The position numbers were made by a program, and so were the translations under genes. Of a stretch of DNA of 64,000 bases, positions 8,386 through 52,370 are shown in pieces. Numbering within the stretch: the stretch's first letter is position 1; every line of letters starts with the position of its first letter. Source of the DNA: Siphonodentalium dalli (Eukaryota; Mollusca; Scaphopoda; Gadilida; Siphonodentaliidae); contig CP136061.1 of NCBI GenBank assembly GCA_032622095.1, positions 95,353,345 to 95,417,344 of the forward strand, written 5' to 3'. Under the pieces are notes generated by a model. That model was not told the origin of the DNA, ran no database searches, and worked only from the letters and a program-made list of their open reading frames with translations.

Positions 8386-8880
8386 CCCGACTGGGGGAAA
8401 TACAGTTACATCACTGTCGACGCAAGCCATTTTTCTTGAAAGGGGGACTATACACTAAATCCGACCATTTACGGGACCAGCAGCTAAAAACTCGCAGGCA
8501 GCTCCAGCACGCCCCGGAGACGCCAACGGGCCACAGTGCAATGCATCCGTGGTAGTTTTGTTATAATGTCTGGATAGTGAATCCTCGTTGACAACCACGA
8601 CACCTCCGCGTTGACATTTGTGTTTCATGCGATTATTATAGGATTAAAATATTAATCGAAGGGTGATTAGATAGTGTTTGATATCGAATCCCAAACACAG
8701 GGGCACACGTGCAGGATCACCATATTAAATGAAGATATATTAAGATTGATCTTATGTTTAATATTGACTATATAAATAACGGAGATATTTCAAGAAGAAT
8801 TAAAAAAAAATGGCGTTAAATCACATTTATTACATTCCCATGCGTGATTTACCTTTATTTCTCGAGTGATTATCAACGAT
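8386..8880. other. Gene-free stretch
   Basis: No gene is recognised. The 138-codon plus-strand frame ending near 8555 is generated mostly by the hairpin element and is not treated as a gene. Confidence 0.4.
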
Positions 8881-17855: not shown

Positions 17856-18164
17856 TTTTAGTTAGTTTTTGTAAATATACAAATCTGCTGTTTATGGTGT
17901 AAATTATGAAAATATACGAATCTGCTGAATATAGAAGAGATTGTTTGACTTTGTTAGAGTGGCCGCCTTTTTTCAATATCCATTTTTTCAGAGAAGACAT
18001 GTCACAGAGCCATTCATTTGCCACGAAGATATGCCTGGCATCGGATCTGTTAGCAGCTCTGTTTATGCGGCTCGTGCAGTCATCCATTTTCGTCCTCGTT
18101 CCCGAGATTATACGAGCGTATGAGACGTCGAGAACATACGGGCAGCTGCTGATGTCGGTCTACG

Positions 18165-20575
18165 TAGGCACTATGCTCATCACAGGTACGTCCATTAAAG
18201 ATACGGTAAGCGTAGGTGCTATGCTCATCACTGGGACGTCCATTAAAGTACGTAGGTACTATTCTCATCACAGGTACGTTAATTAAAGATACGGTAAGCG
18301 TAGGTACTATGCTCATCACATGTACGTCAATTAAAGATACGGTAAGCGTAGGTACTATACTCATCACAGGTACATTAATTAAAGATACGGTAAGCGTAGG
18401 TACTATGCTCATCACAGGTACGTCAATTAAAGTTACGGTAATCGTGGGCACTATGCTAATCACAGGTACGTCCATTAAAGTACGTAGGGACTATTCTCAT
18501 CACAGGTACGTCAATTAAAGATGCGGTAAGCGTAGGTACTATGCTCATCACATGTACACGCATTAAAGATGCGGTAAGCGTAGGTACTATGCTCATCACA
18601 GGTACGTGCGTTAAAGATACGATAAGCGTAGGCACTATGCTCACCATAGGTACGTGTATTAAAGTACGTAGGCACTATGCTCATCACACGTACGTGCATT
18701 AAAGATACGATAAGCGTATGCACTATGCTCATCACAGGTACATGCATTAAAGTACGTAAGCACTATGCTCATCACAGGTACGTCCATTAAATATACGGTA
18801 AGCGTATGCACTATGCTCATCACAGGTACATGCATTAAAGTACGTAAGCACTATGCTCATCACAGGTACGTCCATTAAAGATACGGTAAGCGTATGCACT
18901 ATGCTCATCACAGGTACATGCATTAAAGTACGTAGGCACTATGCTCATCACAGGTACGTCCATTAAAGATACGGTAAGCGTAGGTACTATATGCTCACCA
19001 CAGGTACGTCCATTAAATATACGGTAAGCGTAGGCACTATGCTCATCACAGGTACGTGTATTACAGATACGGCAAGTGTGGGTACTATGCTCATCACATG
19101 TACGTCCATTAAAGATACGGCAAGCGTAGGTACTATGCTCATCACAGGTACATGCATTAAAGATACGATAAGCGTAGTCACTATGCTCATCACATGTACG
19201 TCCATTAAATATACGGTAAGCGAATGCACTATTCTCATCACAGGTACATACATTAAAGTACGTAGGCACTATGCTCACCACATGTACGTGCATTAACGTA
19301 CGTAGGCACTATGCTCATCACAGGTACATGCATTAAAGATACGGTAATCGTAGACACTATGCTCATCACAGGTACGTGCATTAAAGTACGTAGGCACTAT
19401 GCTCATCACAGGTACGTCCATTAAAGATACGGTAAGCGTAGGCACCATATGCTCATCACAGGTTCATACATTAAAGATACGATAAGCGTAGGCACTATGC
19501 TCATCACAGGTACATGCATTAAAGATACGATAAGCGTAGGCACTATGCTCATCACAGGTACATGCATTAAAGTACGTAGGCACTATGCTCACCACATGTA
19601 CGTGCATTAACGTACGTAGGCACTAAGCTCATCACAGGTACATGCATTAAAGTGCGTAGGCACTATGCTCACCACATGTATGTGCATTAACGTACGTAGG
19701 CACCATGCTAATCACAGGTACATGCATTAAAGATACGGTAATCGTAGGCACTATGCTAAGCACAGGTACGTGCATTAAAGTACGTAGGCACTATGCTCAT
19801 CACAGGTACGTCCATTAAAGATACGGTAATCGTAGGCACCATATGCTCATCACAGGTACGTCCATTAAAGATACGGTAAGCGTAGGCACTATGTCCATCA
19901 CAGGTACGTCCATTAAATATATGGTAAGCGTAGGCACTATGCTCATCACAGGTACGTGCATTAAAGTACGTAGGCACTATGCTCATCACAGGTACACGCA
20001 TTAAAGATACGGTAAGCGTAGGCACCATATGCTCATCACAGTTACGTCCATTAAAGTACGTAGGCACTATGCTCATCATAGGTACGCCCATTGAATATAC
20101 GGTAATCGTAGGCACCATATGCTCATCATAGGTACGTCCATTAAAGATACGGTAAGCGTAGGCACTATGTCCATCACATGTACGTCCATTAAATATATGG
20201 TAAGCGTAGGCACTATGCTCATCACAGGTACGTGCATTAAAGTACGTAGGCACTATGCTCATCACAGGTAGGTCCATTAAATATACGGTAAGCGTAAGCA
20301 CTATGCTCATCACAGGTACGTCCATTAAAGTACGTAAGCACTATGCTCATCATAGGTACGCCCATTGACGATACGGTAAGCGTAGGCACTATGCTAATCA
20401 CAGGTATGTTCATTAACGATACGGTAAGCGTAAGCACTATGCTCATCACATGTACGTGCACTATGCTCACCACATGTAGGTGTACTATGCTCATCACAGG
20501 TACGTGCAGTATGCTCATCACATGTAGGTGCACTATGCTCATCACAGGTACGTGCATAAAGATACGCTAAGCGTC
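18165..20575. repeat. 2.4-kb minisatellite of 48/40-bp units
   Basis: Roughly fifty tandem units. The long unit (48 bp) runs GGTACGTCCATTAAAGATAC, then GGTAAGCGTAGGCACTATG, then CTCATCACA. The short unit (40 bp) lacks 8 bp around the GATACGGTAAGC part. Units vary by substitutions, and the two lengths alternate irregularly. Long open frames on both strands arise because stop codons are rare in the unit; the 40-bp units break any shared frame, so I do not call a protein. The array ends about 740 bp before the first visible transporter exon. Confidence 0.9.
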
Positions 20576-23203: not shown

Positions 23204-23674
23204 TGTGACCCGCCATATCAAATCCAGTCGGAAGTCGGGATTTTTTTTACCCTGTGCCAATGGCCAATGCATTCTCTTATATATGCGAGTCGACCATAGG
23301 TCGCCTCGCATATATAAGAGAATTCATTGGCTTAACAATTTTTTATCATGTTTTTTAAATAAATGTTTCTTACAATTTTTAGGACATAAAATAAAAAAAA
23401 ACGTCCGTTACCCTGCAGGGAGCCCTACACATATGTATAGCAGTACATAGAAGAGTGTCGTCTGTTCATGTTTGTCTGGGGCTCTGTATGGGTGAAATTA
23501 TTAAATTGTTAAAGAATACAAGAACAAATTATTAAAATTGTAAAAAATTGTTAGGCCAATGCATTCTCTTATATATGCGAGGCGACCTATGGTCGACTCG
23601 CATATATAAGAGAATGCATTGGCACAGGGTAAAGAAATCCCGACTTCCGACTGGATTTGATATGGCGGGTCACA
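23204..23674. mobile_element. Element containing hairpin-ended copy C
   Basis: Outer inverted repeats of about 46 bp (23204-23249 and 23630-23674; GTGACCCGCCATATCAAATC inward) enclose the hairpin-ended element 23250-23629. In that inner element the 69-bp hairpins lie at 23263-23331 and 23555-23623. The left one has one substitution in its right arm and a 6-bp duplication (CAATGG) before it. The spacer is enlarged to ~220 bp by unrelated sequence. The large palindrome begins 7 bp after this unit. Confidence 0.8.
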
Positions 23675-23680
23675 TTTGTG
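23675..23680. repeat. Left 6-bp target-site duplication, TTTGTG
   Basis: TTTGTG lies immediately outside the left end of the palindromic element and recurs in direct orientation at 39328-39333 immediately outside the right end. Polintons are reported to make 6-bp target duplications. Confidence 0.75.
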
Positions 23681-25060
23681 AGAAGAATAGATGTCTCGTT
23701 AGAGTCACATCTAAAAATAGAATCTTTGGGTCTAAAATTGGTTGTACTAAAATATTCCCAAAATAACAAAACCCAAAAAAAAAATTCAAAAATTCAAAAA
23801 TTTATTTTTTCCAAAAAATTTCAAAACCCTAAAATTATTATTTCCAAAAAAATTCAAAACTTCCAAAAAATTTTAAAACCCCAAAATTTCAAAAGAAAAA
23901 ATTTCAAAACCCCTCAAAATTATTTCTCTAAAAAAAAGTTTAAATAAAAAATTTATAACGAGTTTTTTCGGTTTCTCATAATATCGATATTAAAAAATAT
24001 CGAATGTTAAATTATTTGCGCGTAATATCTTTCGTTATTTTTTTGTTCAACCAATGTTTCAATGTATTTATTAATCGATGTTTAGAAATATCTTTATACC
24101 AATTATATGTGTATGGACAGTCGCTGTAATGTTGGACATTGTGACCAACGGTATGAATGCATACATTCCAGTGTTTAACGGACGCAGTTCATATAATTGT
24201 CATACCTGAAAATAGACACCATTACTTTTTACATAAATAATAAAGAGCGTTTATTCTTTACTTATCTCTATATGAAGTTATTGAGTATATGACAGGCGTG
24301 TGTATTTTCGTCAATTATTGGAAGTATTCAAATGTACTATGTTGAATCCCTAACGGTCGAAAATTGTAATGTGAAATTAGAACCCTCCAGAATGAATTGT
24401 CATATTGAATGAATGATGATTTAATCTCAGCCATTTTTACATGGAACATGAGCGATGTACACTCAATCACACACGCCACATTGGTGTTAACAATGTGTCT
24501 TTCACACCTTTGCTTTACCAAATGAATTCTATTATTTCCCCGGTCACAGCTATATGGTATTCAGAAAACATATCGATTTAATGTCTGAACAAACGGGGTT
24601 AGTATCAATTAAGGTTGATAAACTGTGTCATTCACATGATAATTAGTTAGCCAAAAACATGCATACATATTACGTCAGGTCGTGAGACACTCAATTATAC
24701 AAATTGCTTTGATCACATTGTTATAACAACATTACGTAATAACCCCTTATCACTCCAGTCACACTTACGATCATTTTGTATGCCGAAAACTCCAGGTAGC
24801 ACCGATGATGTAACATTATATCACTGCTATTGTGCCAATGATAGGTTCAGACATGTTCTATGTTTAGAAAAATAGATAATCTGCAGGTGTTCTCAGCGGG
24901 GGGGAACACAGGGTTACGTAATAATAACCAGTTAAACAACTAATGTTGCCTCGTCCGTACAAAACCAATTATCGGCCTATTCATACATTACGTTCATATA
25001 TATATATAATCTTATATAATGTTACGTCATTCGTGCTTGCATATGTTCGGGATTTTATGG
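23681..25060. other. Left-arm terminal non-coding region
   Basis: The ~1.4 kb between the element end and the polymerase gene has no convincing gene. The tip contains AGATGT...ACATCT, a small inverted motif at 23689-23712. From about 23,765 to 23,945 it is a degenerate CAAAA-rich tract (words such as TTTCAAAACCC and TTCCAAAAAA). A 68-codon minus-strand frame at 24315-24521 is conserved in the other arm only because the arms are identical. The mirror region is about 37,946-39,327. Confidence 0.6.
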
Positions 25061-25070
25061 TATAAAAATA
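25061..25070 (+). promoter_or_regulatory. Candidate TATA box for left polymerase gene
   Basis: TATAAAAATA lies 71-80 bp before the ATG at 25141, in sequence free of other start codons in good context. The mirror copy is at 37936-37945 on the minus strand. This is inferred from sequence and position only. Confidence 0.5.
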
Positions 25071-25140
25071 TAGCTTACTAAGCTGTATTCCATATAGTGA
25101 ATATACGCCGCTGTAATCACTACTCAGGACTTCTCGAAAA

Positions 25141-28100
25141 ATGGCTGAAGAAATAATGACACCTCTGACAGTGGATGAAATTTATGAAATAGAATGTATT
25201 CTGCAAGACATCGAAGAATACGACAAGGCTATCGTAGCTTATCAACTGGATGAAGATATAATTGAAGCATCTACGCTTTGTTCAGGAGATGACCCATGGC
25301 CGAACCAAATCGGATACGGAGAAGATGATGCGTCTAAAAATGATGTTAACAACTCACAACCCGGTACAGCTGGACCATCAGGATTACAAAACCGAGAAGA
25401 CGAACAGACACATCATCAAGATGAAGCCGTAAAATCAGACAATCAAACAGCCGACAGTTCTGATATTCAAATAACTGGATATAGCATTCGCAAAAGGAGT
25501 GAACGAATCTTCGGAAACAATTTGGCAACACAGAGAACATATGAGATCAAATTAGATGAAATTTACAAAGAGAAAAAGTTAATCGACATATACAGGAATC
25601 TGCATTCAATGTTCGAGGACACTATTCAAAGAGCTCGTGGAAATTTGGCTGACAATGATCTTGGCAGAGTTATCATTCACCATGAGAGTTTGGACAACCC
25701 TATAGTAGTTCCGTTACAAACGTTGCAAACGTTAAATGCTAACACTGTGATTGACAGAATCGAACTCGTTTTGAACAGTAATCAAACACTGACTGTCAAT
25801 CAAAGTTTCCACATAGATATAGGCACCATCGAGTTACCTAAAGGCGGAGCACGGAGGAGGATAACGGCTTTACATGATGAAAGTAACAATCTAAGAAATA
25901 AAACATCGATCGTTACGATTGAAAACACCGACAATATGTGTATGGCACGGGCTATCGCCACATGTTGGTGTAAATTAAATATTTGCAGTCCTGATGAATG
26001 GCTGGAAATAACACAGAATAGAGGAACCAGAAATAATTTACAACTCATCATGGAATACAGAAAAGTACCGAGCAGTTATTACAAAAATGTGACGGTCAAA
26101 AAACGCACGGAGCAAGGAAAATTAGCCAAAGCAATTAGTGTCATCGCAGGTGTATCAACAGACAGACCGGCCAGTTTAGCAGATCTAAAAGCATTCGAGG
26201 AAACTCTGAATTTGACAATACTAGTCATCAGTGCTAGACTGGGTAATAAATTCATTACCAGCGCGCCTACAGACGGTATAGAAAGACCCGTGATATATTT
26301 ATATCTCACTGCTAATGAACATTTCCACGCTATACAATCCATAACGGGATTCTTTAGCGCAATATATTTCTGTGTGCATTGTTTAAAACATTATTCAAAC
26401 AAAGGAAAGCATTATTGTGAACACACCTGTTTCGTGTGCAAAAGCGATAAATGTGGACAAAGTGAAAACAAAGAACATTGTTCAGATTGTAATATGACGT
26501 GTATGTCTCATCAATGTTTCGTGCGTCATAAAGCAAAACCTATTAATCAAGCTTCGGGAGAAACTACAGCGCCTTGTCAAAAATGGTGGAAATGCTTGGA
26601 CTGTACAAAAGTCATGGAGAGACGGAAAAGACGTCCGAATCAACACGTGTGCGGAGAAACATTTTGTAGATCGTGTGACAAATACACAATGGGACCACAC
26701 GAATGCTATGTGAGGGCCATACCTCCCGTTACTGATGATGAAAGAGCTAAATTCTGTTTCTTCGACTTCGAAACCATTCAACATGATATATTGGAATGTT
26801 CTGAAGGATATGCACCTTTACATACAAAGGATTGCCAGGACTGTAAAGAGGATCATATATGCAAGAAATGTGCTAAGTGTCAGGTGAGTCTTAACCTAAT
26901 TGTAATATATATATATGTAACACATTACAGTCGAAATCACGATAACGTAACGCTCTTTATTAAAGGCGCGCATAAGTAGAGACGCTCTTTCATTTTTTTA
27001 AAATTAGATTATCGCTGAACGCTCTTTAGTTGTTATCTCGCCTGTCAGATTACCATATAACAATTACATACTTGAATTCGACCAAAGTTAACGGGTCTCA
27101 ATATTAAAATTCAACTGAGTCACAGATGTTAAATCGAGTAATTAACTTTTTTAATTCTTGACACATTGAAAAAATGTGTAACATATTTTTTTTGTGAAAA
27201 GAGATTTTGTAATTGTTATATAGTGAACTAACGTAATATATAATTGTTTTAACTTTATTGAACTTGATAGCTGCGTGCTTGAATCGACAATTATACAGGC
27301 TATATGTCGGATCATGATATACATTTTTAATATTGACACGTAGATTGGAACGAGTAATTTTTTAGGATCAACCAACGAACAATAGTAATACGTCAACGCT
27401 CTTTATTAACGTTGAACCTATACCAAAACATTTTTTTTTTTAAAATAATTATCTAAACAAAGTGTAGACGTTTTATTTTGTTTTTTATTATCGATAAAGC
27501 TAGAGGTTAAAACGTTCAATTATTACTTTTCAGAACTGTTTAAAAACATGGTGCGGAAAAGTCCAGCATACACCGAACTTCCTCGTCGCCCAAACAGCTT
27601 GCTACGAATGCATGCATGAATCGTTGGAAGTGAAACCGAACTGTAAAAATTGCGGACCTCTATGTGATGCGTGTATCGACAGTGATGACAAGAAGAAGAA
27701 AAAGAAGAGTGACCGAAATTTATGTTCGGATACATGCGGACTCCGAGAGGTTATATTTAGCGGTCCTGATACCGGTGAAAAGTTTGGAAAATGGTTATTC
27801 TCGGAACAACACAAAGGGTTCATAGCACTGGCTCACAACTTCAAGGGTTACGATGGATATTTTCTCATGGAATATCTCATTGATCAATCCTTGAGACCCA
27901 AAGTTATATATAATGGATCCAAATTGATGTACCTATACGTGGAAAAAGATCTTCATATAAAAGTACTGGACAGTCTCAGCTTTCTACCAATGAAGCTGGC
28001 ACTGTTACCGAAAACTTTCGGTCTTGATGGCGAGAAAAAAGGATGGTTCCCGCACTTTTTCAATAAATCAGCCAACCAGAATTATGAAGGACCCTATCCG

Positions 28101-30362
28101 GATGTCAAATATTACGGCGCTGATTATATGAGTGTGGCTGAACGAAAAGACTTCACGAAATGGCACGCTGCTCAAACAAATGCAGTTTTCATCTTCAAGA
28201 AAGAATTATCGGATTATTGTCGTAGTGATGTCAATATTTTGAGACAAGCTTGCATAAAATTCAGAACCCACATCATGAATGCGACTGGAAATATACAACC
28301 CGTAATTGACGAGTTTTCTGGCGATATGAAGTTCAAACTGGTCGGTGCGGTTGATCCATTCCAATACGTTACAATCGCATCGGTATGTATGGGTATATTC
28401 AGAACGAAATTCGTCGACGAGGAATGGAGAGTGCGTCTAAGTACTGAAGGGAAAACGTGGCTTCCTGCTAAATGTAAAGATGGAACCTTGTCTATTTTAT
28501 ACAAAGGTGAATGGGTTCAAGACACAAAACTTCAAGATGAACGCGGCGTCCAAATTCGTGAGAAAGAATTTCTCAAATCCCAGATAGCTCGAATCCCCAA
28601 GACATCGTATAAAGATCAATACAGCAAAAGTTCTATTCAATGGCTGGAATGGCTGATGTTCAAAGACAAAGTTCACATAACTCACGCATTGAACGGCCGT
28701 GAAAAGAAACTCGATGATGCAAAGTACAGATTGGATGGTTATTGCGAAGAATTAAACACGGCATTCGAATTTCACGGCTGTCAATTCCATGGATGTGAAC
28801 TTTGTCTGAGTCACGACAGAGACATAGTCAAGAATCCGATAACCAACCAGACACCTAATGAATTATACGGACTCACACAGAAAAAGAAGAAGTTTATAGA
28901 AAGTCGAGGCATGAAATATGTGTGCATTTGGGAACACGAGTTCGTCGCTGCTCGAAAGACTAATCCGGAGCTTCGTGACTTCATCGCTAGTTTAGACATT
29001 GTTGAGCGGCTAGAGCCTAGAGACAGTTTCTTCGGCGGCAGAACGAATGCAACTAAATTACACTACAAAGCTGCCGTTGGTGAGAAAATACACTATTTTG
29101 ATTTCACGTCGCTGTATCCAAGTGTGCTCAAATACTCTCGCTATCCGATTGGACACCCTAAAATCATTTTGGGCGATGACATTACCGAGCTTAAGGATTA
29201 CTTCGGAATAGCGCAAGTCAAGATTTTACCACCTAATGGACTCTATCACCCCGTATTACCGTATCGATCCGAAGGTAAACTGAAGTTTCCACTGTGCAGG
29301 ACTTGTGCTGATAATGAAAATCAACGACCTTGCACGTGTACGTGCCAACAGAGAGCCATTACCGGCGTTTGGTGTATTCCTGAACTGGAGACAGCTGTCA
29401 AAGTGGGATACAAGATTCTCAAAATATATGAAATATACCACTGGACCGAAACGTCAGACTATAGCCAACAAAATGGATTATTCACGGAATATATAAACAC
29501 ATTCCTAAAGTTCAAGCAGCAGGCTAGCGGTCCTCCGGATTGGATAAAATCTAACGAAGACATGGATAAATACATCACATCGTATAAAGACAACGAAGGT
29601 ATATTACTGGACAGAGAAAGCATCGAAAAGAATCCAGGACTGAGGCAAATCAGCAAGCTCATGCTCAACTCATTTTGGGGGAAGTTAGGCCAAAACCAGA
29701 ATTTCAAGCAGACCGAGTATTTCCATGAATCGGAACAAGACAATCTATTCCAGCTGATTTCAAATCCAATGAAACAAATGGAAAATTTTCATGTCATAAC
29801 TGATGACATGCTTCAAATGGAGTGGACCTATCGAAAAGACTGTGTGCCTTGTGGAGCAGCGAATAACATATATTTGGCCACATTCACGACGTGTCACGCT
29901 CGATTAATGCTATATGAAGTTATTCATTCCTTGGACAGAAGAGTATTATATTACGACACGGATAGTTGTGTATTTAGCAGCACTGAGGATCAAATTAATC
30001 CCCCACTGGGCGACTATTTGGGCCAACTCACCAGCGAGCTAGATCCGGACGAATACATCGAAGAATTTGTTTCTGGAGGCCCCAAGAATTACGCTTATCG
30101 AACAAATAAAGCTAAAGAGACGTGTAAAGTTCGGGGGTTCTCTTTGAACTTTGAAAATTCACAGTTCATCAATTTCCAGACGATTAAAGAGCTGTTAGAA
30201 TCTGGAAGCACAGTGCCCATCACCACAACCAATCCAAGGAAAATATGCAGATCGAAAGGAAAAAGAAAGATATATAACAGATCTGAGGACAAACAGTACC
30301 GAGTTGTTTATACCAAACGCAGACGATTGGATAACATGGATACACTGCCATATGGATATTGA
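25141..30362 (+). CDS. Protein-primed family B DNA polymerase, left arm
   Basis: Two exons, 25141-26883 and 27534-30362, joined by a 650-bp GTGAGT...TTTTCAG intron in phase 0, give 1,523 codons. Residues 1-110 are acidic. About 260-400 looks OTU-like: D264-x-x-C267 in DNMCMARAI and H394/H396 in NEHFHAI. About 410-535 is a Cys/His zinc-binding cluster. Exonuclease motifs follow: Exo I FDFET (D542, E544), Exo II HNFKGYD (682-688), Exo III YCRSD (809-813). Polymerase motifs are A DFTSLYP (D1104), B KLMLNSFWG (K1289-G1297) and C YYDTDS (D1389, D1391). Between them sits D982-G-Y...E993-F-H, which resembles a nuclease-type motif common in this polymerase group. All catalytic residues are present, so the gene looks active. 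It would replicate linear DNA from a protein-primed end. Confidence 0.93.
26884..27533 (+). other. Intron of left polymerase gene, with repeated ACGCTCTTT
   Basis: The intron opens GTGAGT and closes TTACTTTTCAG. It keeps the polymerase frame and joins two cysteine-rich stretches (ends CAKCQ, resumes NCLKTWCGK), as expected of one zinc-binding region. The 9-mer ACGCTCTTT occurs at 26950, 26982, 27019 and 27396, and inverted at 24242-24250 upstream. The mirror intron is 35473-36122. Confidence 0.85.
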
Positions 30363-30474
30363 ACGAGGTACGTAATATATATATAATTTAATCGTCTATA
30401 TTTGATCAAGGTTGTAATGAGAGTGTAAATATTCGATCGATGGTAGTTATCGGATTATACTAAGACTCGTTCAA

Positions 30475-30506
30475 ACACGTTCGATGTTAGATAACATCGA
30501 GCGTGT
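30475..30506. terminator. Hairpin between convergent genes, left arm
   Basis: The arms ACACGTTCGATGTTA (30475-30489) and TAACATCGAGCGTGT (30492-30506) pair around two bases with one mismatch. It sits between the 3' ends of the polymerase gene and the 186-codon gene. A second inverted motif, TTTTTGGTTTA / TAAACCAAAAA, lies at about 30,711-30,736. A role in transcript 3' ends is inferred from position only. The mirror hairpin is at 32500-32531. Confidence 0.5.
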
Positions 30507-30576
30507 ATGAACACGTATTACTATAAACGTATGGCCGTCATTGGTCAATTTATCCAAGGTGTCCATTTTTTCGATC

Positions 30577-30584
30577 TATAAAAT
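30577..30584 (+). promoter_or_regulatory. Orphan TATA box in left arm
   Basis: TATAAAAT lies after the polymerase stop, pointing toward the axis, and is followed about 75 bp later by CAG|GTTAGT, a possible splice donor. No gene follows it on this strand within the arm, only the antisense of the 186-codon gene. It may be the promoter of a neighbouring gene lost when the arm was formed. The mirror copy is at 32422-32429. Confidence 0.3.
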
Positions 30585-30749
30585 GCTACCCGATCCAATT
30601 CACAATTACAAATTCGGTAGTCCTATACTGTGCGTGTGAAATATTCTATACAGGTTAGTTATGAATTATGATTTCTATCATTACATTTTTACCTCCAGTA
30701 CAATCTCATTTTTGGTTTATACTTAAACCAAAAACAACTATTTTTTTTT

Positions 30750-31310
30750 TTATTTTCTCAACGAAGAGTCACCATAATTCCAGATTATTCCGAATGACCA
30801 GATTAATTCATTCTCTAATTCTGAAATATATTTCGATTTACTTGTAGAAATGTAATCCAAAATCACGCCGCTGTTAAGTATTTGTTCAATCGTGAACAGT
30901 GTACCCGGTTCACGGAGAATGATATATCCATGAATTATTGTCACTTCTTCAAAACTTCTCTGATTGAAAACCCAGTCTCGGTATTCTGCAAATCTCACAA
31001 AGTTATCTCCAATAAGTTCACGAATGTCATGTATTTTGTTTTTAGGAACGCCTCTAAATACCCAGCGATTTGAATACATTTGATTCAATATATCTTGTAA
31101 GAAATCAGTTTCAAATTCAGACCTCTCAATCAAAGATTTCAATCGTTGTACAGGAAAATATCCTTCATCTATATTCTTCAGTATTATTTTAATTTCTCTT
31201 ATAAACCAATTGTGTAGTAGTTGTTTTTTTATTTCTGGATTTATAGTTGACATTTCAATTAGCTGATTGTATATTTTCTCCAGTATTTCTGCGGGTAGTA
31301 TTCTCTCCAT
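30750..31310 (-). CDS. Unknown 186-aa protein of the palindromic element, left arm
   Basis: The preferred start is the ATG at 31310-31308, giving MERILPAEILEKIYNQL...; an in-frame extension to 31658 would run through the GC-rich tract as an Arg/Gly/Pro-rich sequence and is not believed. The first ~20 residues fit an F-box-like pattern (LPxEILxKIxxxL). The rest is mixed alpha/beta in character, with many charged and aromatic residues, no signal peptide and no membrane segment. I recognise no family. It converges on the polymerase gene. The start is preceded by two copies of TTGAGTCA. The translation is identical to the right-arm copy. Confidence 0.7.
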   Translation of the reverse strand: MERILPAEILEKIYNQLIEMSTINPEIKKQLLHNWFIREIKIILKNIDEGYFPVQRLKSLIERSEFETDFLQDILNQMYSNRWVFRGVPKNKIHDIRELIGDNFVRFAEYRDWVFNQRSFEEVTIIHGYIILREPGTLFTIEQILNSGVILDYISTSKSKYISELENELIWSFGIIWNYGDSSLRK

Positions 31311-31317
31311 AATGAAC

Positions 31318-31333
31318 TGACTCAATGACTCAA
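31318..31333 (-). promoter_or_regulatory. Tandem TGAGTCA sites before the left 186-aa gene
   Basis: On the minus strand this reads TTGAGTCATTGAGTCA, two TGAGTCA heptamers (the AP-1/bZIP consensus) spaced 8 bp apart and ending 7 bp before the ATG. The mirror copy is at 31673-31688. Function is inferred from the motif; it could equally be 5' leader sequence. Confidence 0.35.
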
Positions 31334-31354
31334 TTTTCTTATTCTTATTGAGTA

Positions 31355-31650
31355 TGCGGGCGGGGGGGCGGGCCTCCCCTCTCCCCCCAGGGCGACAGGG
31401 CGGGGGCGGGGCTCCCCTCCCCAGGGTGGGCGGGGGCGGGCGGGCGGGCGGGCGGGCCTCCCCCTCCCCAGGGCGGGCGGGCGGGCGGGCCTCCCCCTCC
31501 CCAGGGCGGGCGGGGCGGGCGGGGGCGGGCGGGCCGCCCTGGGGAGGGGGAGGCCCGCCCGCCCGCCCGCCCCCGCCCGCCCTGGGGAGGGGAGCCCCGC
31601 CCCCCGCCCTGTCGCCCTGGGGGGAGGGGGAGGCCCGCCCCCCGCCCCGC
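31355..31650. repeat. GC-rich tandem tract at the palindrome axis
   Basis: This ~300-bp tract is almost only G and C, in an element that is otherwise AT-rich. Units of roughly 35-40 bp consist of (GGGC)n followed by CTCCCCCTCCCCA. The strand polarity flips near 31,530-31,540 (GGGCGGGCC|GCCCTGGGG), while the axis defined by the outer arms is 31503, so the left side holds one to two more units than the right. The GGGC runs could form G-quadruplexes. Open frames through it are not considered coding. Confidence 0.85.
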
Positions 31651-31672
31651 ATACTCAATAAGAATAAGAAAA

Positions 31673-31688
31673 TTGAGTCATTGAGTCA
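31673..31688 (+). promoter_or_regulatory. Tandem TGAGTCA sites before the right 186-aa gene
   Basis: TTGAGTCATTGAGTCA ends 7 bp before the ATG at 31696. It is the mirror of the motif at 31318-31333 and fits the AP-1/bZIP consensus twice. Confidence 0.35.
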
Positions 31689-31695
31689 GTTCATT

Positions 31696-32256
31696 ATGGA
31701 GAGAATACTACCCGCAGAAATACTGGAGAAAATATACAATCAGCTAATTGAAATGTCAACTATAAATCCAGAAATAAAAAAACAACTACTACACAATTGG
31801 TTTATAAGAGAAATTAAAATAATACTGAAGAATATAGATGAAGGATATTTTCCTGTACAACGATTGAAATCTTTGATTGAGAGGTCTGAATTTGAAACTG
31901 ATTTCTTACAAGATATATTGAATCAAATGTATTCAAATCGCTGGGTATTTAGAGGCGTTCCTAAAAACAAAATACATGACATTCGTGAACTTATTGGAGA
32001 TAACTTTGTGAGATTTGCAGAATACCGAGACTGGGTTTTCAATCAGAGAAGTTTTGAAGAAGTGACAATAATTCATGGATATATCATTCTCCGTGAACCG
32101 GGTACACTGTTCACGATTGAACAAATACTTAACAGCGGCGTGATTTTGGATTACATTTCTACAAGTAAATCGAAATATATTTCAGAATTAGAGAATGAAT
32201 TAATCTGGTCATTCGGAATAATCTGGAATTATGGTGACTCTTCGTTGAGAAAATAA
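31696..32256 (+). CDS. Unknown 186-aa protein of the palindromic element, right arm
   Basis: This is the mirror of 30750-31310 with an identical translation, starting at the ATG at 31696 (MERILPAEILEKIYNQL...) and ending at TAA 32254-32256. A longer in-frame start at 31348 would add ~116 residues encoded by the GC-rich tract and is rejected as low-complexity. The N-terminus is F-box-like; the remainder is unassigned. The two copies are divergently transcribed away from the axis, 385 bp apart. If the F-box resemblance is real, it might act as a ubiquitin-ligase adaptor, but that is speculative. Confidence 0.7.
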   Translation: MERILPAEILEKIYNQLIEMSTINPEIKKQLLHNWFIREIKIILKNIDEGYFPVQRLKSLIERSEFETDFLQDILNQMYSNRWVFRGVPKNKIHDIRELIGDNFVRFAEYRDWVFNQRSFEEVTIIHGYIILREPGTLFTIEQILNSGVILDYISTSKSKYISELENELIWSFGIIWNYGDSSLRK

Positions 32257-32643
32257 AAAAAAAAATAGTTGTTTTTGGTTTAAGTATAAACCAAAAATGA
32301 GATTGTACTGGAGGTAAAAATGTAATGATAGAAATCATAATTCATAACTAACCTGTATAGAATATTTCACACGCACAGTATAGGACTACCGAATTTGTAA
32401 TTGTGAATTGGATCGGGTAGCATTTTATAGATCGAAAAAATGGACACCTTGGATAAATTGACCAATGACGGCCATACGTTTATAGTAATACGTGTTCATA
32501 CACGCTCGATGTTATCTAACATCGAACGTGTTTGAACGAGTCTTAGTATAATCCGATAACTACCATCGATCGAATATTTACACTCTCATTACAACCTTGA
32601 TCAAATATAGACGATTAAATTATATATATATTACGTACCTCGT

Positions 32644-35600
32644 TCAATATCCATATGGCAGTGTATCCATGTTATCCAATCGTCTGCGTTTGGTATAAAC
32701 AACTCGGTACTGTTTGTCCTCAGATCTGTTATATATCTTTCTTTTTCCTTTCGATCTGCATATTTTCCTTGGATTGGTTGTGGTGATGGGCACTGTGCTT
32801 CCAGATTCTAACAGCTCTTTAATCGTCTGGAAATTGATGAACTGTGAATTTTCAAAGTTCAAAGAGAACCCCCGAACTTTACACGTCTCTTTAGCTTTAT
32901 TTGTTCGATAAGCGTAATTCTTGGGGCCTCCAGAAACAAATTCTTCGATGTATTCGTCCGGATCTAGCTCGCTGGTGAGTTGGCCCAAATAGTCGCCCAG
33001 TGGGGGATTAATTTGATCCTCAGTGCTGCTAAATACACAACTATCCGTGTCGTAATATAATACTCTTCTGTCCAAGGAATGAATAACTTCATATAGCATT
33101 AATCGAGCGTGACACGTCGTGAATGTGGCCAAATATATGTTATTCGCTGCTCCACAAGGCACACAGTCTTTTCGATAGGTCCACTCCATTTGAAGCATGT
33201 CATCAGTTATGACATGAAATTTTTCCATTTGTTTCATTGGATTTGAAATCAGCTGGAATAGATTGTCTTGTTCCGATTCATGGAAATACTCGGTCTGCTT
33301 GAAATTCTGGTTTTGGCCTAACTTCCCCCAAAATGAGTTGAGCATGAGCTTGCTGATTTGCCTCAGTCCTGGATTCTTTTCGATGCTTTCTCTGTCCAGT
33401 AATATACCTTCGTTGTCTTTATACGATGTGATGTATTTATCCATGTCTTCGTTAGATTTTATCCAATCCGGAGGACCGCTAGCCTGCTGCTTGAACTTTA
33501 GGAATGTGTTTATATATTCCGTGAATAATCCATTTTGTTGGCTATAGTCTGACGTTTCGGTCCAGTGGTATATTTCATATATTTTGAGAATCTTGTATCC
33601 CACTTTGACAGCTGTCTCCAGTTCAGGAATACACCAAACGCCGGTAATGGCTCTCTGTTGGCACGTACACGTGCAAGGTCGTTGATTTTCATTATCAGCA
33701 CAAGTCCTGCACAGTGGAAACTTCAGTTTACCTTCGGATCGATACGGTAATACGGGGTGATAGAGTCCATTAGGTGGTAAAATCTTGACTTGCGCTATTC
33801 CGAAGTAATCCTTAAGCTCGGTAATGTCATCGCCCAAAATGATTTTAGGGTGTCCAATCGGATAGCGAGAGTATTTGAGCACACTTGGATACAGCGACGT
33901 GAAATCAAAATAGTGTATTTTCTCACCAACGGCAGCTTTGTAGTGTAATTTAGTTGCATTCGTTCTGCCGCCGAAGAAACTGTCTCTAGGCTCTAGCCGC
34001 TCAACAATGTCTAAACTAGCGATGAAGTCACGAAGCTCCGGATTAGTCTTTCGAGCAGCGACGAACTCGTGTTCCCAAATGCACACATATTTCATGCCTC
34101 GACTTTCTATAAACTTCTTCTTTTTCTGTGTGAGTCCGTATAATTCATTAGGTGTCTGGTTGGTTATCGGATTCTTGACTATGTCTCTGTCGTGACTCAG
34201 ACAAAGTTCACATCCATGGAATTGACAGCCGTGAAATTCGAATGCCGTGTTTAATTCTTCGCAATATTCATCCAATCTGTACTTTGCATCATCGAGTTTC
34301 TTTTCACGGCCGTTCAATGCGTGAGTTATGTGAACTTTGTCTTTGAACATCAGCCATTCCAGCCATTGAATAGAACTTTTGCTGTATTGATCTTTATACG
34401 ATGTCTTGGGGATTCGAGCTATCTGGGATTTGAGAAATTCTTTCTCACGAATTTGGACGCCGCGTTCATCTTGAAGTTTTGTGTCTTGAACCCATTCACC
34501 TTTGTATAAAATAGACAAGGTTCCATCTTTACATTTAGCAGGAAGCCACGTTTTCCCTTCAGTACTTAGACGCACTCTCCATTCCTCGTCGACGAATTTC
34601 GTTCTGAATATACCCATACATACCGATGCGATTGTAACGTATTGGAATGGATCAACCGCACCGACCAGTTTGAACTTCATATCGCCAGAAAACTCGTCAA
34701 TTACGGGTTGTATATTTCCAGTCGCATTCATGATGTGGGTTCTGAATTTTATGCAAGCTTGTCTCAAAATATTGACATCACTACGACAATAATCCGATAA
34801 TTCTTTCTTGAAGATGAAAACTGCATTTGTTTGAGCAGCGTGCCATTTCGTGAAGTCTTTTCGTTCAGCCACACTCATATAATCAGCGCCGTAATATTTG
34901 ACATCCGGATAGGGTCCTTCATAATTCTGGTTGGCTGATTTATTGAAAAAGTGCGGGAACCATCCTTTTTTCTCGCCATCAAGACCGAAAGTTTTCGGTA
35001 ACAGTGCCAGCTTCATTGGTAGAAAGCTGAGACTGTCCAGTACTTTTATATGAAGATCTTTTTCCACGTATAGGTACATCAATTTGGATCCATTATATAT
35101 AACTTTGGGTCTCAAGGATTGATCAATGAGATATTCCATGAGAAAATATCCATCGTAACCCTTGAAGTTGTGAGCCAGTGCTATGAACCCTTGGTGTTGT
35201 TCCGAGAATAACCATTTTCCAAACTTTTCACCGGTATCAGGACCGCTAAATATAACCTCTCGGAGTCCGCATGTATCCGAACATAAATTTCGGTCACTCT
35301 TCTTTTTCTTCTTCTTGTCATCACTGTCGATACACGCATCACATAGAGGTCCGCAATTTTTACAGTTCGGTTTCACTTCCAACGATTCATGCATGCATTC
35401 GTAGCAAGCTGTTTGGGCGACGAGGAAGTTCGGTGTATGCTGGACTTTTCCGCACCATGTTTTTAAACAGTTCTGAAAAGTAATAATTGAACGTTTTAAC
35501 CTCTAGCTTTATCGATAATAAAAAACAAAATAAAACGTCTACACTTTGTTTAGATAATTATTTAAAAAAAAAAAATGTTTTGGTATAGGTTCAACGTTAA

Positions 35601-37865
35601 TAAAGAGCGTTGACGTATTACTATTGTTCGTTGGTTGATCCTAAAAAATTACTCGTTCCAATCTACGTGTCAATATTAAAAATGTATATCATGATCCGAC
35701 ATATAGCCTGTATAATTGTCGATTCAAGCACGCAGCTATCAAGTTCAATAAAGTTAAAACAATTATATATTACGTTAGTTCACTATATAACAATTACAAA
35801 ATCTCTTTTCACAAAAAAAATATGTTACACATTTTTTCAATGTGTCAAGAATTAAAAAAGTTAATTACTCGATTTAACATCTGTGACTCAGTTGAATTTT
35901 AATATTGAGACCCGTTAACTTTGGTCGAATTCAAGTATGTAATTGTTATATGGTAATCTGACAGGCGAGATAACAACTAAAGAGCGTTCAGCGATAATCT
36001 AATTTTAAAAAAATGAAAGAGCGTCTCTACTTATGCGCGCCTTTAATAAAGAGCGTTACGTTATCGTGATTTCGACTGTAATGTGTTACATATATATATA
36101 TTACAATTAGGTTAAGACTCACCTGACACTTAGCACATTTCTTGCATATATGATCCTCTTTACAGTCCTGGCAATCCTTTGTATGTAAAGGTGCATATCC
36201 TTCAGAACATTCCAATATATCATGTTGAATGGTTTCGAAGTCGAAGAAACAGAATTTAGCTCTTTCATCATCAGTAACGGGAGGTATGGCCCTCACATAG
36301 CATTCGTGTGGTCCCATTGTGTATTTGTCACACGATCTACAAAATGTTTCTCCGCACACGTGTTGATTCGGACGTCTTTTCCGTCTCTCCATGACTTTTG
36401 TACAGTCCAAGCATTTCCACCATTTTTGACAAGGCGCTGTAGTTTCTCCCGAAGCTTGATTAATAGGTTTTGCTTTATGACGCACGAAACATTGATGAGA
36501 CATACACGTCATATTACAATCTGAACAATGTTCTTTGTTTTCACTTTGTCCACATTTATCGCTTTTGCACACGAAACAGGTGTGTTCACAATAATGCTTT
36601 CCTTTGTTTGAATAATGTTTTAAACAATGCACACAGAAATATATTGCGCTAAAGAATCCCGTTATGGATTGTATAGCGTGGAAATGTTCATTAGCAGTGA
36701 GATATAAATATATCACGGGTCTTTCTATACCGTCTGTAGGCGCGCTGGTAATGAATTTATTACCCAGTCTAGCACTGATGACTAGTATTGTCAAATTCAG
36801 AGTTTCCTCGAATGCTTTTAGATCTGCTAAACTGGCCGGTCTGTCTGTTGATACACCTGCGATGACACTAATTGCTTTGGCTAATTTTCCTTGCTCCGTG
36901 CGTTTTTTGACCGTCACATTTTTGTAATAACTGCTCGGTACTTTTCTGTATTCCATGATGAGTTGTAAATTATTTCTGGTTCCTCTATTCTGTGTTATTT
37001 CCAGCCATTCATCAGGACTGCAAATATTTAATTTACACCAACATGTGGCGATAGCCCGTGCCATACACATATTGTCGGTGTTTTCAATCGTAACGATCGA
37101 TGTTTTATTTCTTAGATTGTTACTTTCATCATGTAAAGCCGTTATCCTCCTCCGTGCTCCGCCTTTAGGTAACTCGATTGTGCCTATATCTATGTGGAAA
37201 CTTTGATTGACAGTCAGTGTTTGATTACTGTTCAAAACGAGTTCGATTCTGTCAATCACAGTGTTAGCATTTAACGTTTGCAACGTTTGTAACGGAACTA
37301 CTATAGGGTTGTCCAAACTCTCATGGTGAATGATAACTCTGCCAAGATCATTGTCAGCCAAATTTCCACGAGCTCTTTGAATAGTGTCCTCGAACATTGA
37401 ATGCAGATTCCTGTATATGTCGATTAACTTTTTCTCTTTGTAAATTTCATCTAATTTGATCTCATATGTTCTCTGTGTTGCCAAATTGTTTCCGAAGATT
37501 CGTTCACTCCTTTTGCGAATGCTATATCCAGTTATTTGAATATCAGAACTGTCGGCTGTTTGATTGTCTGATTTTACGGCTTCATCTTGATGATGTGTCT
37601 GTTCGTCTTCTCGGTTTTGTAATCCTGATGGTCCAGCTGTACCGGGTTGTGAGTTGTTAACATCATTTTTAGACGCATCATCTTCTCCGTATCCGATTTG
37701 GTTCGGCCATGGGTCATCTCCTGAACAAAGCGTAGATGCTTCAATTATATCTTCATCCAGTTGATAAGCTACGATAGCCTTGTCGTATTCTTCGATGTCT
37801 TGCAGAATACATTCTATTTCATAAATTTCATCCACTGTCAGAGGTGTCATTATTTCTTCAGCCAT
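32644..37865 (-). CDS. Protein-primed family B DNA polymerase, right arm
   Basis: This is the mirror copy of the left-arm gene, with exons 36123-37865 and 32644-35472 on the minus strand and intron 35473-36122; 1,523 codons. All exonuclease and polymerase motifs of the left copy are present. Three residue differences were found: K675Q, G983E and N1332K (left to right). G983E replaces the glycine of the D-G-Y motif and needs two adjacent base changes (GGT to GAA), so the left copy is more likely ancestral there. Both copies have intact frames, which indicates a recent insertion or continuing correction between arms. The N-terminal OTU-like and zinc-cluster regions appear unchanged. Confidence 0.93.
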
Positions 37866-37935
37866 TTTTCGAGAAGTCCTGAGTAGTGATTACAGCGGCG
37901 TATATTCACTATATGGAATACAGCTTAGTAAGCTA

Positions 37936-37945
37936 TATTTTTATA
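37936..37945 (-). promoter_or_regulatory. Candidate TATA box for right polymerase gene
   Basis: Mirror of 25061-25070: TATAAAAATA on the minus strand, 71-80 bp before the ATG at 37865. Inferred from motif and spacing. Confidence 0.5.
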
Positions 37946-39327
37946 CCATAAAATCCCGAACATATGCAAGCACGAATGACGTAACATTATATAAGATTAT
38001 ATATATATATGAACGTAATGTATGAATAGGCCGATAATTGGTTTTGTACGGACGAGGCAACATTAGTTGTTTAACTGGTTATTATTACGTAACCCTGTGT
38101 CCCCCCCCCCGCTGAGAACACCTGCAGATTATCTATTTTTCTAAACATAGAACATGTCTGAACCTATCATTGGCACAATAGCAGTGATATAATGTTACAT
38201 CATCGGTGCTACCTGGAGTTTTCGGCATACAAAATGATCGTAAGTGTGACTGGAGTGATAAGGGGTTATTACGTAATGTTGTTATAACAATGTGATCAAA
38301 GCAATTTGTATAATTGAGTGTCTCACGACCTGACGTAATATGTATGCATGTTTTTGGCTAACTAATTATCATGTGAATGACACAGTTTATCAACCTTAAT
38401 TGATACTAACCCCGTTTGTTCAGACATTAAATCGATATGTTTTCTGAATACCATATAGCTGTGACCGGGGAAATAATAGAATTCATTTGGTAAAGCAAAG
38501 GTGTGAAAGACACATTGTTAACACCAATGTGGCGTGTGTGATTGAGTGTACATCGCTCATGTTCCATGTAAAAATGGCTGAGATTAAATCATCATTCATT
38601 CAATATGACAATTCATTCTGGAGGGTTCTAATTTCACATTACAATTTTCGACCGTTAGGGATTCAACATAGTACATTTGAATACTTCCAATAATTGACGA
38701 AAATACACACGCCTGTCATATACTCAATAACTTCATATAGAGATAAGTAAAGAATAAACGCTCTTTATTATTTATGTAAAAAGTAATGGTGTCTATTTTC
38801 AGGTATGACAATTATATGAACTGCGTCCGTTAAACACTGGAATGTATGCATTCATACCGTTGGTCACAATGTCCAACATTACAGCGACTGTCCATACACA
38901 TATAATTGGTATAAAGATATTTCTAAACATCGATTAATAAATACATTGAAACATTGGTTGAACAAAAAAATAACGAAAGATATTACGCGCAAATAATTTA
39001 ACATTCGATATTTTTTAATATCGATATTATGAGAAACCGAAAAAACTCGTTATAAATTTTTAATTTAAACTTTTTTTTAGAGAAATAATTTTGAGGGGTT
39101 TTGAAATTTTTTCTTTTGAAATTTTGGGGTTTTAAAATTTTTTGGAAGTTTTGAATTTTTTTGGAAATAATAATTTTAGGGTTTTGAAATTTTTTGGAAA
39201 AAATAAATTTTGGAATTTTTGAATTTTTTTTTTGGGTTTTGTTATTTTGGGAATATTTTAGTACAACCAATTTTAGACCCAAAGATTCTATTTTTAGATG
39301 TGACTCTAACGAGACATCTATTCTTCT

Positions 39328-39333
39328 TTTGTG
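39328..39333. repeat. Right 6-bp target-site duplication, TTTGTG
   Basis: Direct repeat of 23675-23680, placed exactly after the CTATTCTTCT end of the palindrome. Inverted symmetry stops at this point, so the boundary is unambiguous to the base. Confidence 0.75.
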
Positions 39334-39914: not shown

Positions 39915-40196
39915 CCCTTTCAGTGCCAAGTCCGATTTTTTGTATCAACCCATATACCCTGTGCCAATGCATTCTCTTATATATGCGAGTCGACCATAGG
40001 TCGCCTCGCATATATAAGAGAATGCATTGGCCTAACAAATTTACATCATTTGTTATTATTTTTTTTACAATTTTTTACAATTTTAATAATTTTTTCTTAT
40101 ATTCTTTAACTCATTCAGTGCCATATTTTTATCGGCCCTGGCACTCTACAGACCGTAAATTAGGGCCGATGAGATCGGCCCCTGGCACTGAAAGAG
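39915..40196. mobile_element. TTAA-flanked element next to the exon acceptor
   Basis: TTAA at 39911-39914 and 40197-40200 flanks a 282-bp unit with ends CCCTTTCAGTGCCA and TGGCACTGAAAGAG. Inside is one 69-bp hairpin (about 39,963-40,031, preceded by CCCTGTGCC) plus part of the AT-rich spacer of the hairpin-ended family; the second hairpin is absent. The right end lies 33 bp before the acceptor of the exon at 40230, so the insertion defines part of that exon's branch-point region. Confidence 0.8.
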
Positions 40197-40229: not shown

Positions 40230-40982
40230 GGTTGGGTCTTGGTGGAGCTCTACTCACAATAACAGCAATCCCTGTTAAATTCGGAGGTAATTCGAAGACG
40301 CGATGGGTCGCGGCCACGACAACTGCGGAATCCCTTGGCTGCGTCATCTCCCCTGTTGTCTGTGATTGGCTAATAGGTGAATTCGGGTGGAGAATGGCAT
40401 GCGTTGTATTCGGAGCTGCAACTCTTCAGATTATTCCAATTGCCCATTGGGTAATCATAACGAGTCGACTGAAACACTTTGAAGACGCTCACCGGGACGA
40501 GACAGCCGTGAAATACATTGCTTTAGTCAAGGATAGACAGTTTGTTGCAGCCGCATTTGTTGGAATGGCTCTTGCAATTTTATTTCGCACACGAGCTGTT
40601 TTCGTCGATATGTTAATGTGGAAAGGACATGGTAGAGGGGAATCTGCATTTGCCTTATCAATGCAACTAGTAGCAAATTTCATTGGACACACGATAATCG
40701 TGGGCATAGTGGCCTTCAGAGAATTCCGATCTGTTCCATATTTAATCACGTCACTGATTATCACGGTCATTCCGCTGGTTTTGTTGACGTTCTTCAAACA
40801 GTATAACATCTTGTTGTGGCTCGGTGTATTATACGGACTAGCAGAGGGTGTGTCGTTTTGTCTCTTCAACTTAAACTTAGAAGAAGTTTGCAAGAAATGG
40901 GGCGCTGAAGCGTTCGCCTTCGGACTGGGAATACGATTTATGGGATCTGGTGTTCTCACACTGACACTGGGACCATTGACAG
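40230..40982 (+). CDS. SLC16/MCT-like transporter, large exon
   Basis: Acceptor AATATTTTCAG ends at 40229 and donor CAG|GTACGT begins at 40983. The exon's first two bases complete a Gly codon begun at 21458, then it encodes 250 residues plus one base. It starts LGLGGALLTITAIPVKF, with an MCT-like transmembrane segment, then a W-rich region ending FGWRMACVVFGAA, a charged cytoplasmic loop (HFEDAHRDETAVKYIALVK), and about five further hydrophobic helices ending LTLGPLTG. This order fits TM4-TM11 of a 12-helix major-facilitator monocarboxylate transporter. It has no stop or frameshift. The phase matches the exon at 43689. Confidence 0.9.
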
Positions 40983-41019
40983 GTACGTTCCTTCTGCCGT
41001 TTCTTTACTAAATGGATTC

Positions 41020-50865: not shown

Positions 50866-52370
50866 GATCAATCATCCCCAGTGGTGCAATAATACCCAGT
50901 GGTGCAATCATCCCAAGTGGTGCAATCATCCCAAGTGGTGCAACCATCCCCAGCGGTGCAATCATCCCCAGTGGTGCAATCATCCCAAGTGGTGCAATCA
51001 TCCCCAGTGGTGCAATCATCCCAAGTGGTGCAATCGACCCCAACGGCGCAATCGTCCCCAGTGGTGCAATCACCCCCAGTGGTGCAATCGTTCCCAGTGG
51101 TGCAATCAATCCCAGTGGTGCAAACATTCCGGAGTGGTGCCACAATCTCCAGTGGTGCAATCATCCCCAGTGGTGCAATCAGCCCCCCCCCCCCGGTGGT
51201 GCAATCATCCCCAGTGGTGCAATCACCCCCAGTGGTGCAATAATTCCCATGTAATCATCCCCGTGTAATCATCCCCATTGGTGCAATCATTCCCAGTGGT
51301 ACAATCATATCCAGTGGTGCAATAATTCCCATGTAATCATCCCCAGTGGTGCAATCATTCCCAGTGGTGCAATCATATCCAGTGGTGCAATCATCCCCAG
51401 TGGTGAAATCATTCAGGAGTGGTGCAATCATTCCCAGTGGTGCAATCATATCCAGTGGTGCAATCGTTCCCAGTGGTGTATCATCCCGAGTGGTGCAATC
51501 ATTCCCAGTGGTGCATAATCCCGAGTGGTGCAATCGTTCCCAGTGGTGTGTCATCCCCAGTGGTGCAATCATTCCCAGTGGTGCATCATCCCGAGTGGTG
51601 CAATCGTTCCCAGTGGTGTATCATCCCGAGTGGTGCAATCGTCCCCAGTGGTGCATCATCCCGAGTGATGCAATCATCCCCAGTGGTGAAATCATTCAGG
51701 AGTGGTGCAATCATTCCCAGTGGTGCAATCATATCCAGTGGTGTATCATCCCGAGTGGTGCAATCGACCCCAGTGGTGCAATCGTTCCCGAGTGGTGCAA
51801 TCATCCCCAGTGGTGCAATCGTTTCCGAGTGGTGCAATCGTTCCCGAGTTGTGCAATCGTTCCCGAGTGGTGCAATCGTCCCCAGTGGTGCATCATCCCG
51901 AGTGGTGCAATCGTTCCCGAGTGGTGCAATCGTCCCCAGTGGTGCATCATCCCGATTGGTGCAATCGTTCCCAGTGGTGCATCATCCCGAGTGGTGCAAT
52001 CATCCCCAGTGGTGCAATCGTTTCCGAGTGGTGCAATCGTCCCCAGTGGTGCATCATCCCGAGTGGTGCAATCGTTCCCAGTGGTGCATCATCCCGAGTG
52101 GTGCAATCGTTCCCAGTGGTGCATCATCCCGAGTGGTGCAATCGTTCCCAGTGGGGCATCATCCCGAGTGGTGCAATCGTTCCCAGTGGTGCATCATCCC
52201 GAGTGGTGCAATCGTCCCCAGTGGTGCATCATCCCGAGTGGTGCAATCGTCCCCAGTGGTGCATCATCCCGAGTGGTGCAATCGTTCCAAGTGGTGCAAT
52301 CGTCCCCAGTGGTGCAATCGTTCCCAGTGGTGCAATCGCCCCCGTGTAATCATCCCCAGTGGTGCAATGT
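50866..52370. repeat. 1.5-kb minisatellite of 18/17-bp units
   Basis: About eighty copies of a unit built around CCCCAGTGGTGCAATCAT. The first part is mainly 18-bp units; the second alternates 18- and 17-bp units (TCCCAGTGGTGCATCA / TCCCGAGTGGTGCAATCG), giving a 35-bp higher-order repeat. Very long open frames occur in several frames because the unit lacks stop codons; since the 35-bp repeat shifts frame each time, no protein is called. A poly-C run interrupts the array near 51,181-51,193. Confidence 0.9.

Follow-up and report, generated by a model that had tools for sequence, protein, structure and literature searches.

Defective adenovirus genomes of the snap-back, or end-duplicated, type take both of their ends from one parental end, are formed by fold-back on a protein-primed linear replicon, and keep approximately the parental length. 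The present analysis describes a comparable architecture in an animal chromosome, namely a palindromic Polinton (Maverick) at positions 23681–39327 of a 64,000-nt stretch of the scaphopod Siphonodentalium dalli (C1:95353345-95417344 of a 2.23-Gb genome in 9 contigs; C3, used below, is a contig label in the same genome). This whole stretch is called the window hereafter. According to PMC8097293, the length of intact vertebrate Mavericks is 16,862 ± 1,678 bp, which suggests a constraint on genome size, their terminal inverted repeats (TIRs) span 46–1,447 bp, their published end motifs are (AG)3 and (AGT)2, and Maverick particles have not been observed. The window copy shares with Polintons a 6-bp target-site duplication (TSD), AG-type ends, and an organellar/viral-type family B polymerase (PolB), and a full-length relative in the same genome adds matches to an rve integrase with chromodomain and weak matches to an A32-type ATPase and an adenovirus-type protease. 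In contrast to known Polintons, the window copy consists entirely of its inverted repeat and lacks the integrase and the other genes of the left half. It probably arose as a snap-back dimer: the right half of a Polinton with multiple copies in this genome would have been copied by fold-back on protein-primed linear DNA and integrated with the help of enzymes from other copies.

The palindrome measures 15,647 bp, and its arms (left, 23681–31464, plus strand; right, 31542–39327, minus strand) are about 0.12% apart. A repeat search gives the arm pairs 23681–24904/38104–39327 and 24898–31464/31542–38108, each printed as 100% complementary. When the arms are aligned without the GC-rich centre, nine mismatches and two indel runs are found per 7,666 bases, and the arms are therefore not literally identical. 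The earlier note had described a giant near-perfect palindrome whose arms pair base for base at a constant coordinate sum of 63006. The arm alignment, the Polinton-type ends and the perfect TSD bear out the palindrome itself, and the sum holds across the inner arm; across the outer 1.2 kb it is 63008 because of a G7A/G10 difference at about 24898, and the mismatches and indel runs contradict strict base-for-base pairing. The element begins with AGAAGAATAG at either side and thus has inverted AG-type ends (AGAAGA...TCTTCT), which are similar but not identical to the motifs published in PMC8097293. Both ends are bordered by a perfect TTTGTG duplication (23675–23680 and 39328–39333) that is absent from the earlier note, and beyond these copies the flanks are unrelated. 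The outermost stretch of each arm (23681–24895, plus strand, starting AGAAGA; right-end copy at 38113–39327, minus strand) corresponds to the TIR of about 1.2 kb in full-length copies. A GC-rich minisatellite (31356–31650) spans the axis, where 77 nt separate the exact arms. At the fold point, a 33-bp stem closing a G-rich loop of about 24 nt is predicted (31477–31566, z score −9.92).

The best 40 of 2,670 first-look candidates from a genome search with the 1.2-kb end form 16 inverted end pairs and eight singles. The pairs comprise the window element, four elements spanning 16,425–16,443 bp, and 11 elements spanning approximately 8.3–9.2 kb. All 15 non-window pairs were retrieved as elements, and the four singles examined (L006, L007, L012, and L018) are right ends attached to right-half sequence. 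The full-length copies (L032, L034, L036, and L038) measure about 16.43 kb, close to the vertebrate mean of 16,862 bp given in PMC8097293, and have TIRs of about 1.2 kb. In all four, about 7.8 kb of the right half is 98.2–98.9% identical to the window arm, whereas the left half has only the TIR of about 1.2 kb in common with it. Since the window arms match right halves and the left halves differ, the window element consists of two right halves, and its fold point is the GC minisatellite located mid-element in the full-length copies. A search for a complete Polinton whose terminal 7.8 kb or so matches one arm had been proposed as a check, and it is answered by every full-length copy retrieved. 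The left half of L032 carries an integrase gene (rve, 1.8e-14; chromo, 8.1e-8), together with an A32/AAA-like ATPase and a Peptidase_C5-like open reading frame (ORF), both below the Pfam cut-offs. This left half is 98.4–99.1% identical to the other three over about 8.2 kb. It also contains a TATA-binding-protein-like gene (L032:7570-8091, minus strand; PF00352, 3e-32), and L032 has in addition a PC4-like ORF (L032:8106-8423, minus strand; 1e-5), which suggest that the full-length Polinton has its own transcription factors. Elsewhere, at C3:191331338-191357635, two full-length-type copies lie near each other in opposite orientation, as judged from PolB and integrase matches.

A second right-half palindrome is present at C3:286440216-286455842. 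It measures 15,627 bp, has the TSD GATCTA, and its arms differ by 10 mismatches per 7,590. Perfect 6-bp TSDs border this element and the 15 retrieved pairs, i.e., 16 of the 16 other copies. At its junction, the strand from the right end crosses the minisatellite, runs about 200 nt further to ...GCTTGGCCCCG, and is followed by the inverted minisatellite. The loop is thus asymmetric, and the jump back into the minisatellite takes place at about 6 nt, GCCCCG. Read from the sequence, such a junction is the trace expected if a 3′ end folded back and primed itself at about 6 nt of homology. The window copy, on the other hand, folds within the minisatellite, and its axis pattern (anchor gaps 261–321) occurs at one place genome-wide (control 0). 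The C3:286 element has an anchor gap of 417, and at least two separate events are therefore indicated. As to left-half palindromes, the best 40 of 488 candidates contained no two integrase places in inverted orientation within 14 kb of each other.

The proposed origin starts from protein-primed, strand-displacing replication of a linear element, during which a strand from the right end would reach the mid-element GC minisatellite. The nascent strand would then fold back on itself and be copied to its own start, giving a hairpin-linked product, and one further round of replication would turn this product into a duplex that has the same right end on both sides. The dimer would therefore have two origins and two ends recognised by the integrase. 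Integration, with its 6-bp duplication, would be carried out in trans by the enzymes of full-length copies, as the window copy lacks its own integrase and capsid genes. What we infer is that fold-back took place on free linear DNA, that helper functions acted in trans, and that the element was already a palindrome when it integrated. Free Polinton DNA is, to our knowledge, itself inferred. The dimer of 15.65 kb compares with 16.43 kb for the full-length copies, i.e., right-half dimers have 95% of the full length, and this size fits a length limit, which the short palindromes, at about half the length, do not fit. The earlier note's suggestion that one Polinton end had formed a snap-back dimer of roughly full genome length is supported by the full-length relatives and by 12 further palindromes. 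These 12, comprising 11 short elements and one right-half element, likewise answer its call for other palindromic copies.

The two ends of a palindrome agree far more closely than those of a full-length copy. Over the outermost 1,100 bp, the 13 palindromes show 0–4 differences between left and right end (mean 0.098%) and the four full-length copies 6–21 differences (mean 1.23%; Mann-Whitney p 0.0032). The arms of the 11 short palindromes show 28 mismatches per 38,500 positions (first 3,500 of each arm), whereas five short-type copies compared with L022, another short palindrome, are 96.8–98.1% identical over 3.7–4.3 kb. It is thus probable that palindrome arms were copied from one another not long before insertion, or that passage through a hairpin kept them identical. 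In a tree of 36 ends, from which C3:286 was left out and for which the bootstrap had not settled, 11 of 12 palindromes pair their own two ends, L021 among them with less than full support. In the twelfth, L028, the two ends are identical to each other and to the left end of the full-length L036. In this tree, L034 and L038 have their left and right ends in separate places, those of L032 are not separated, and in L036 the right end branches immediately outside the group that contains the left end (82/54). Moreover, the left ends of L034, L036, and L038 are 2, 0, and 1 bases from ends of the short palindromes L022, L028, and L028, respectively, against 21, 6, and 16 differences from their own right ends. 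Palindromes and full-length copies share ends, and because these full-length left ends are nearer to short-palindrome ends than to their own right ends, the two kinds probably also exchange them.

All 11 retrieved short copies are palindromic end to end and have the same ends as the window element; in L027 and L029, the centres (172 and 407 nt) lie outside the main blastn match. Each arm consists of the 1.2-kb end and a gene for a C2H2/A32-like ATPase (Pfam assignment on the L021 protein). Every copy has at least one arm in which the ATPase frame is open, for 500–606 codons; in L021 and L025, the frame of the other arm is interrupted. The interior has no match to the left halves of L032 and L036, the two compared, and shares with the window arm only the TIR and short end-like stretches near some centres. 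Bivalves have relatives of this ATPase, and some of these predicted proteins also have rve, chromo, or Peptidase_C5 domains, so that the gene is probably the packaging ATPase of another Polinton lineage. No Rep- or resolvase-like match was found in one ATPase ORF, the sole short-element ORF searched.

The best 40 of 1,925 first-look places for the ATPase DNA represent 15 inverted pairs and 10 singles. One single is L025, an already retrieved palindrome, and the other nine all hold an inverted partner (about 2.2 kb at the expected zone). No non-palindromic short element is thus seen among these 25, for most of which palindromy was judged from the inverted partner rather than from an end-to-end reading. 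A pattern of 24 specified bases in the stem flanking the centre occurs at 266 places genome-wide (control 0), which is a complete count of centres and not of verified elements. A conserved centre in so many copies implies that the palindromic form is itself inherited, or else is rebuilt at the same place every time. The centre of L021 is predicted to fold into a stem with two side arms (−44.9 kcal/mol, z −8.15), a T shape like that of the parvovirus terminal hairpin. The centres of L022 and L028, cut differently, give other pairings (z −4.90 and −3.84), and the generality of the T shape therefore rests on the similarity of the centre sequences. The arm identity is also as expected from replication through a hairpin end, as in parvoviruses and poxviruses; in contrast to these viral telomeres, the outer ends here are Polinton ends and the hairpin is a predicted fold. 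Two orientations of the short-palindrome centre had been considered as a possible flip-flop, and this idea was dropped because a palindrome inserted either way yields both orientations.

Members of the short family probably multiply in palindromic form and perhaps exist as half-length, hairpin-closed molecules. A more far-reaching scheme, which we hold tentatively and regard as somewhat less probable than its negation, is that the Polintons of this genome gave rise to a palindromic satellite that perpetuates itself. Elements of about 8.6 kb would exist as half-length linear molecules with a protein-primed open end and a conserved T-shaped hairpin at the other, would become near-perfect palindromes when copying proceeds through the hairpin, and would be integrated by the enzymes of full-length copies. 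The window dimer would then be a fresh example of how such a lineage starts.

Several points weigh against a fold-back origin of the window element. The minisatellite of a full-length copy folds worse than its shuffles (z +3.71), and a specially stable hairpin that precedes fold-back is therefore not supported. Two distinct full-length copies, L037 and L039, differ by just 8 in about 6,300 positions of the right half, so that arm identity at the level of 0.12% is by itself no proof of copying from arm to arm. Right-half palindromes are a minority, with two among the 38 elements behind the best 40 of 241 PolB places; of the others, 22 are taken as full-length (21 by an integrase at the full-length distance and one by the retrieved element) and 14 were not classed. 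No capsid gene was confirmed in the full-length copies, the 420-aa ORF of L032 having neither a Pfam match nor a match to PDB sequences at 10. The evidence base is the assembled genome sequence alone, and the TSD and private flanks would be kept equally if an inserted full-length copy had been converted in place.

Such in-place conversion is the strongest of the alternatives and is nevertheless unlikely. According to it, a full-length Polinton was inserted, and break repair or template switching between its TIRs then copied the right half over the left up to the minisatellite. The TSD, the unique flanks, and the near-identical arms are explained in this way without free replication, the near-full length follows as well, and the loop of C3:286 keeps about 200 nt from past the minisatellite. 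However, the conversion would have to extend exactly to the last base of the element, and the four full-length copies are barely homogenised even in their TIRs (1.23%). The occurrence of the short-palindrome centre at 266 places also makes it seem that palindromes move as such.

A joining of two opposed Polintons on the chromosome, in which an inversion or dicentric event brought two right halves together after insertion, is very improbable. Closely spaced opposed copies of full-length type do exist, e.g., at C3:191.33-191.36 Mb, and two distinct full-length copies (8 in about 6,300) can be as alike as the window arms. Nevertheless, a single matching outer TSD is unexpected from such an event and yet borders both right-half palindromes, and the window arm has 42–48 differences in about 6,370 positions from the right halves of the four retrieved full-length copies. 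Near-perfect palindromes are a classic artefact of assembly, from fold-back reads or collapsed repeats, but this origin has hardly any probability here, as the limits coincide with Polinton ends and a perfect TSD between two different flanks, the arms have nine private differences and C-terminal PolB ORFs that differ at 3 residues, and the same architecture recurs at 12 other retrieved loci with a TSD of their own.

Each arm encodes a family B polymerase in two exon-like ORFs (DNA_pol_B_2, PF03175, E 1.6e-51). In the left arm (plus strand), ORF 1 with the exonuclease I motif lies at 25141–26883 in a frame open to 26979, a probable intron of 650 bp at 26884–27533, and ORF 2 with the DNA_pol_B_2 match at 27534–30362; in the right arm (minus strand), ORF 1 and ORF 2 lie at 36123–37865 and 32644–35472, respectively. 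The predicted splice sites are the donor CAG|GTGAGT at 26884 and the acceptor TTTTCAG ending at 27533. In most of the 11 intronless relatives compared, residue 589 of ORF 1 leads to residue 10 of ORF 2 free of gaps. Intact polymerases of 1,523 codons had been proposed; this number is reached by count over the two exon-like ORFs (581 + 942 from the ATG at 25141), whereas the reading frame itself is divided by the probable intron. The exonuclease and polymerase motifs that were sought are present in both arms, and the PolB is, by its sequence, of the protein-primed type. Its relatives reach 63% identity (best 120 of 910) and include several from bivalves, some from a gastropod, and one from a hemichordate. 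Among viral_contigs (248 pattern matches) and genome_contigs (453), tblastn confirmed no PolB relative, in a search whose single-sequence query detects close relatives only. The C-terminal ORF had no match to PDB sequences at 0.001.

The second gene of each arm is a 186-codon ORF (30750–31310, minus strand; 31696–32256, plus strand). The comparison of the arms shows that these two ORFs are identical, as the earlier note had claimed, and the N-terminal PolB ORFs are identical too. No homologue of the 186-codon ORF was found at E ≤ 0.001, weak matches were obtained only to Pfam (DUF1366, 0.072) and PHROGs, and a single-sequence AlphaFold model is poor (predicted local distance difference test, pLDDT, 46.6). 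Among the ORFs of the window copy, no integrase was found and no capsid, packaging ATPase, or protease genes were seen. Without an rve integrase, the copy is classed as a defective derivative and not as a complete Polinton.

Other features of the window lie outside the element. A short MITE-like (miniature inverted-repeat transposable element-like) hairpin repeat (GCCAATGCATTCTCTTATATATGCGAG...) occurs at 8149–8393, 11125–11352, 23263–23631, and 39955–40051, and the Polinton adjoins one of its copies. A second inverted-repeat pair (45138–45551/48400–48837), about 96% complementary and about 2.8 kb apart, is possibly a separate transposon. Large minisatellites are present at 18163–20574 and 50869–52368 (48-bp and 18-bp units, respectively). 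An MFS transporter-like ORF (40232–41008; PF07690, 4.7e-11) lies about 0.9 kb past the right end of the element, and the ORF at 61113–61712 matches a Dam methyltransferase family at 5.9e-5, below the Pfam cut-off.

Foldback transposons and palindromic MITEs resemble the window copy in that inverted repeats form nearly the whole element. They are distinguished by non-coding arms devoid of replication genes, whereas the arms here are coding, with open PolB frames or a C2H2-ATPase gene, are near-identical within a copy, and have Polinton ends. The likeness to defective adenovirus genomes extends to the single-end origin, the copying by fold-back, and the near-parental length. Both halves of the window element come from one end of a parental element present in the same genome, and a fold-back junction is found at the axis, within the minisatellite in the window and as a microhomology jump in C3:286. 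Two things differ from the adenovirus case: the product has been inserted, with a TSD, into an animal genome, and a lineage of shorter palindromes appears to have spread to hundreds of places. A literature search, in which few subscription journals were covered, showed no palindromic or snap-back Polinton among the entries listed, and exact phrases likewise gave none.

Whole-element palindromes with TSDs are what would be expected if Polintons replicate as free linear DNA by strand displacement, fold back, and then integrate. If this is true, the genome holds a record of Polinton replication. The many shorter mirror-image relatives suggest that fold-back copies were repeatedly made and spread, and the abundance of the short palindromes, together with ends common to full-length copies, speaks for Polintons of a defective, satellite-like kind in an animal. 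Both ideas, the replication record and the satellite, can be tested in this one genome and its relatives.

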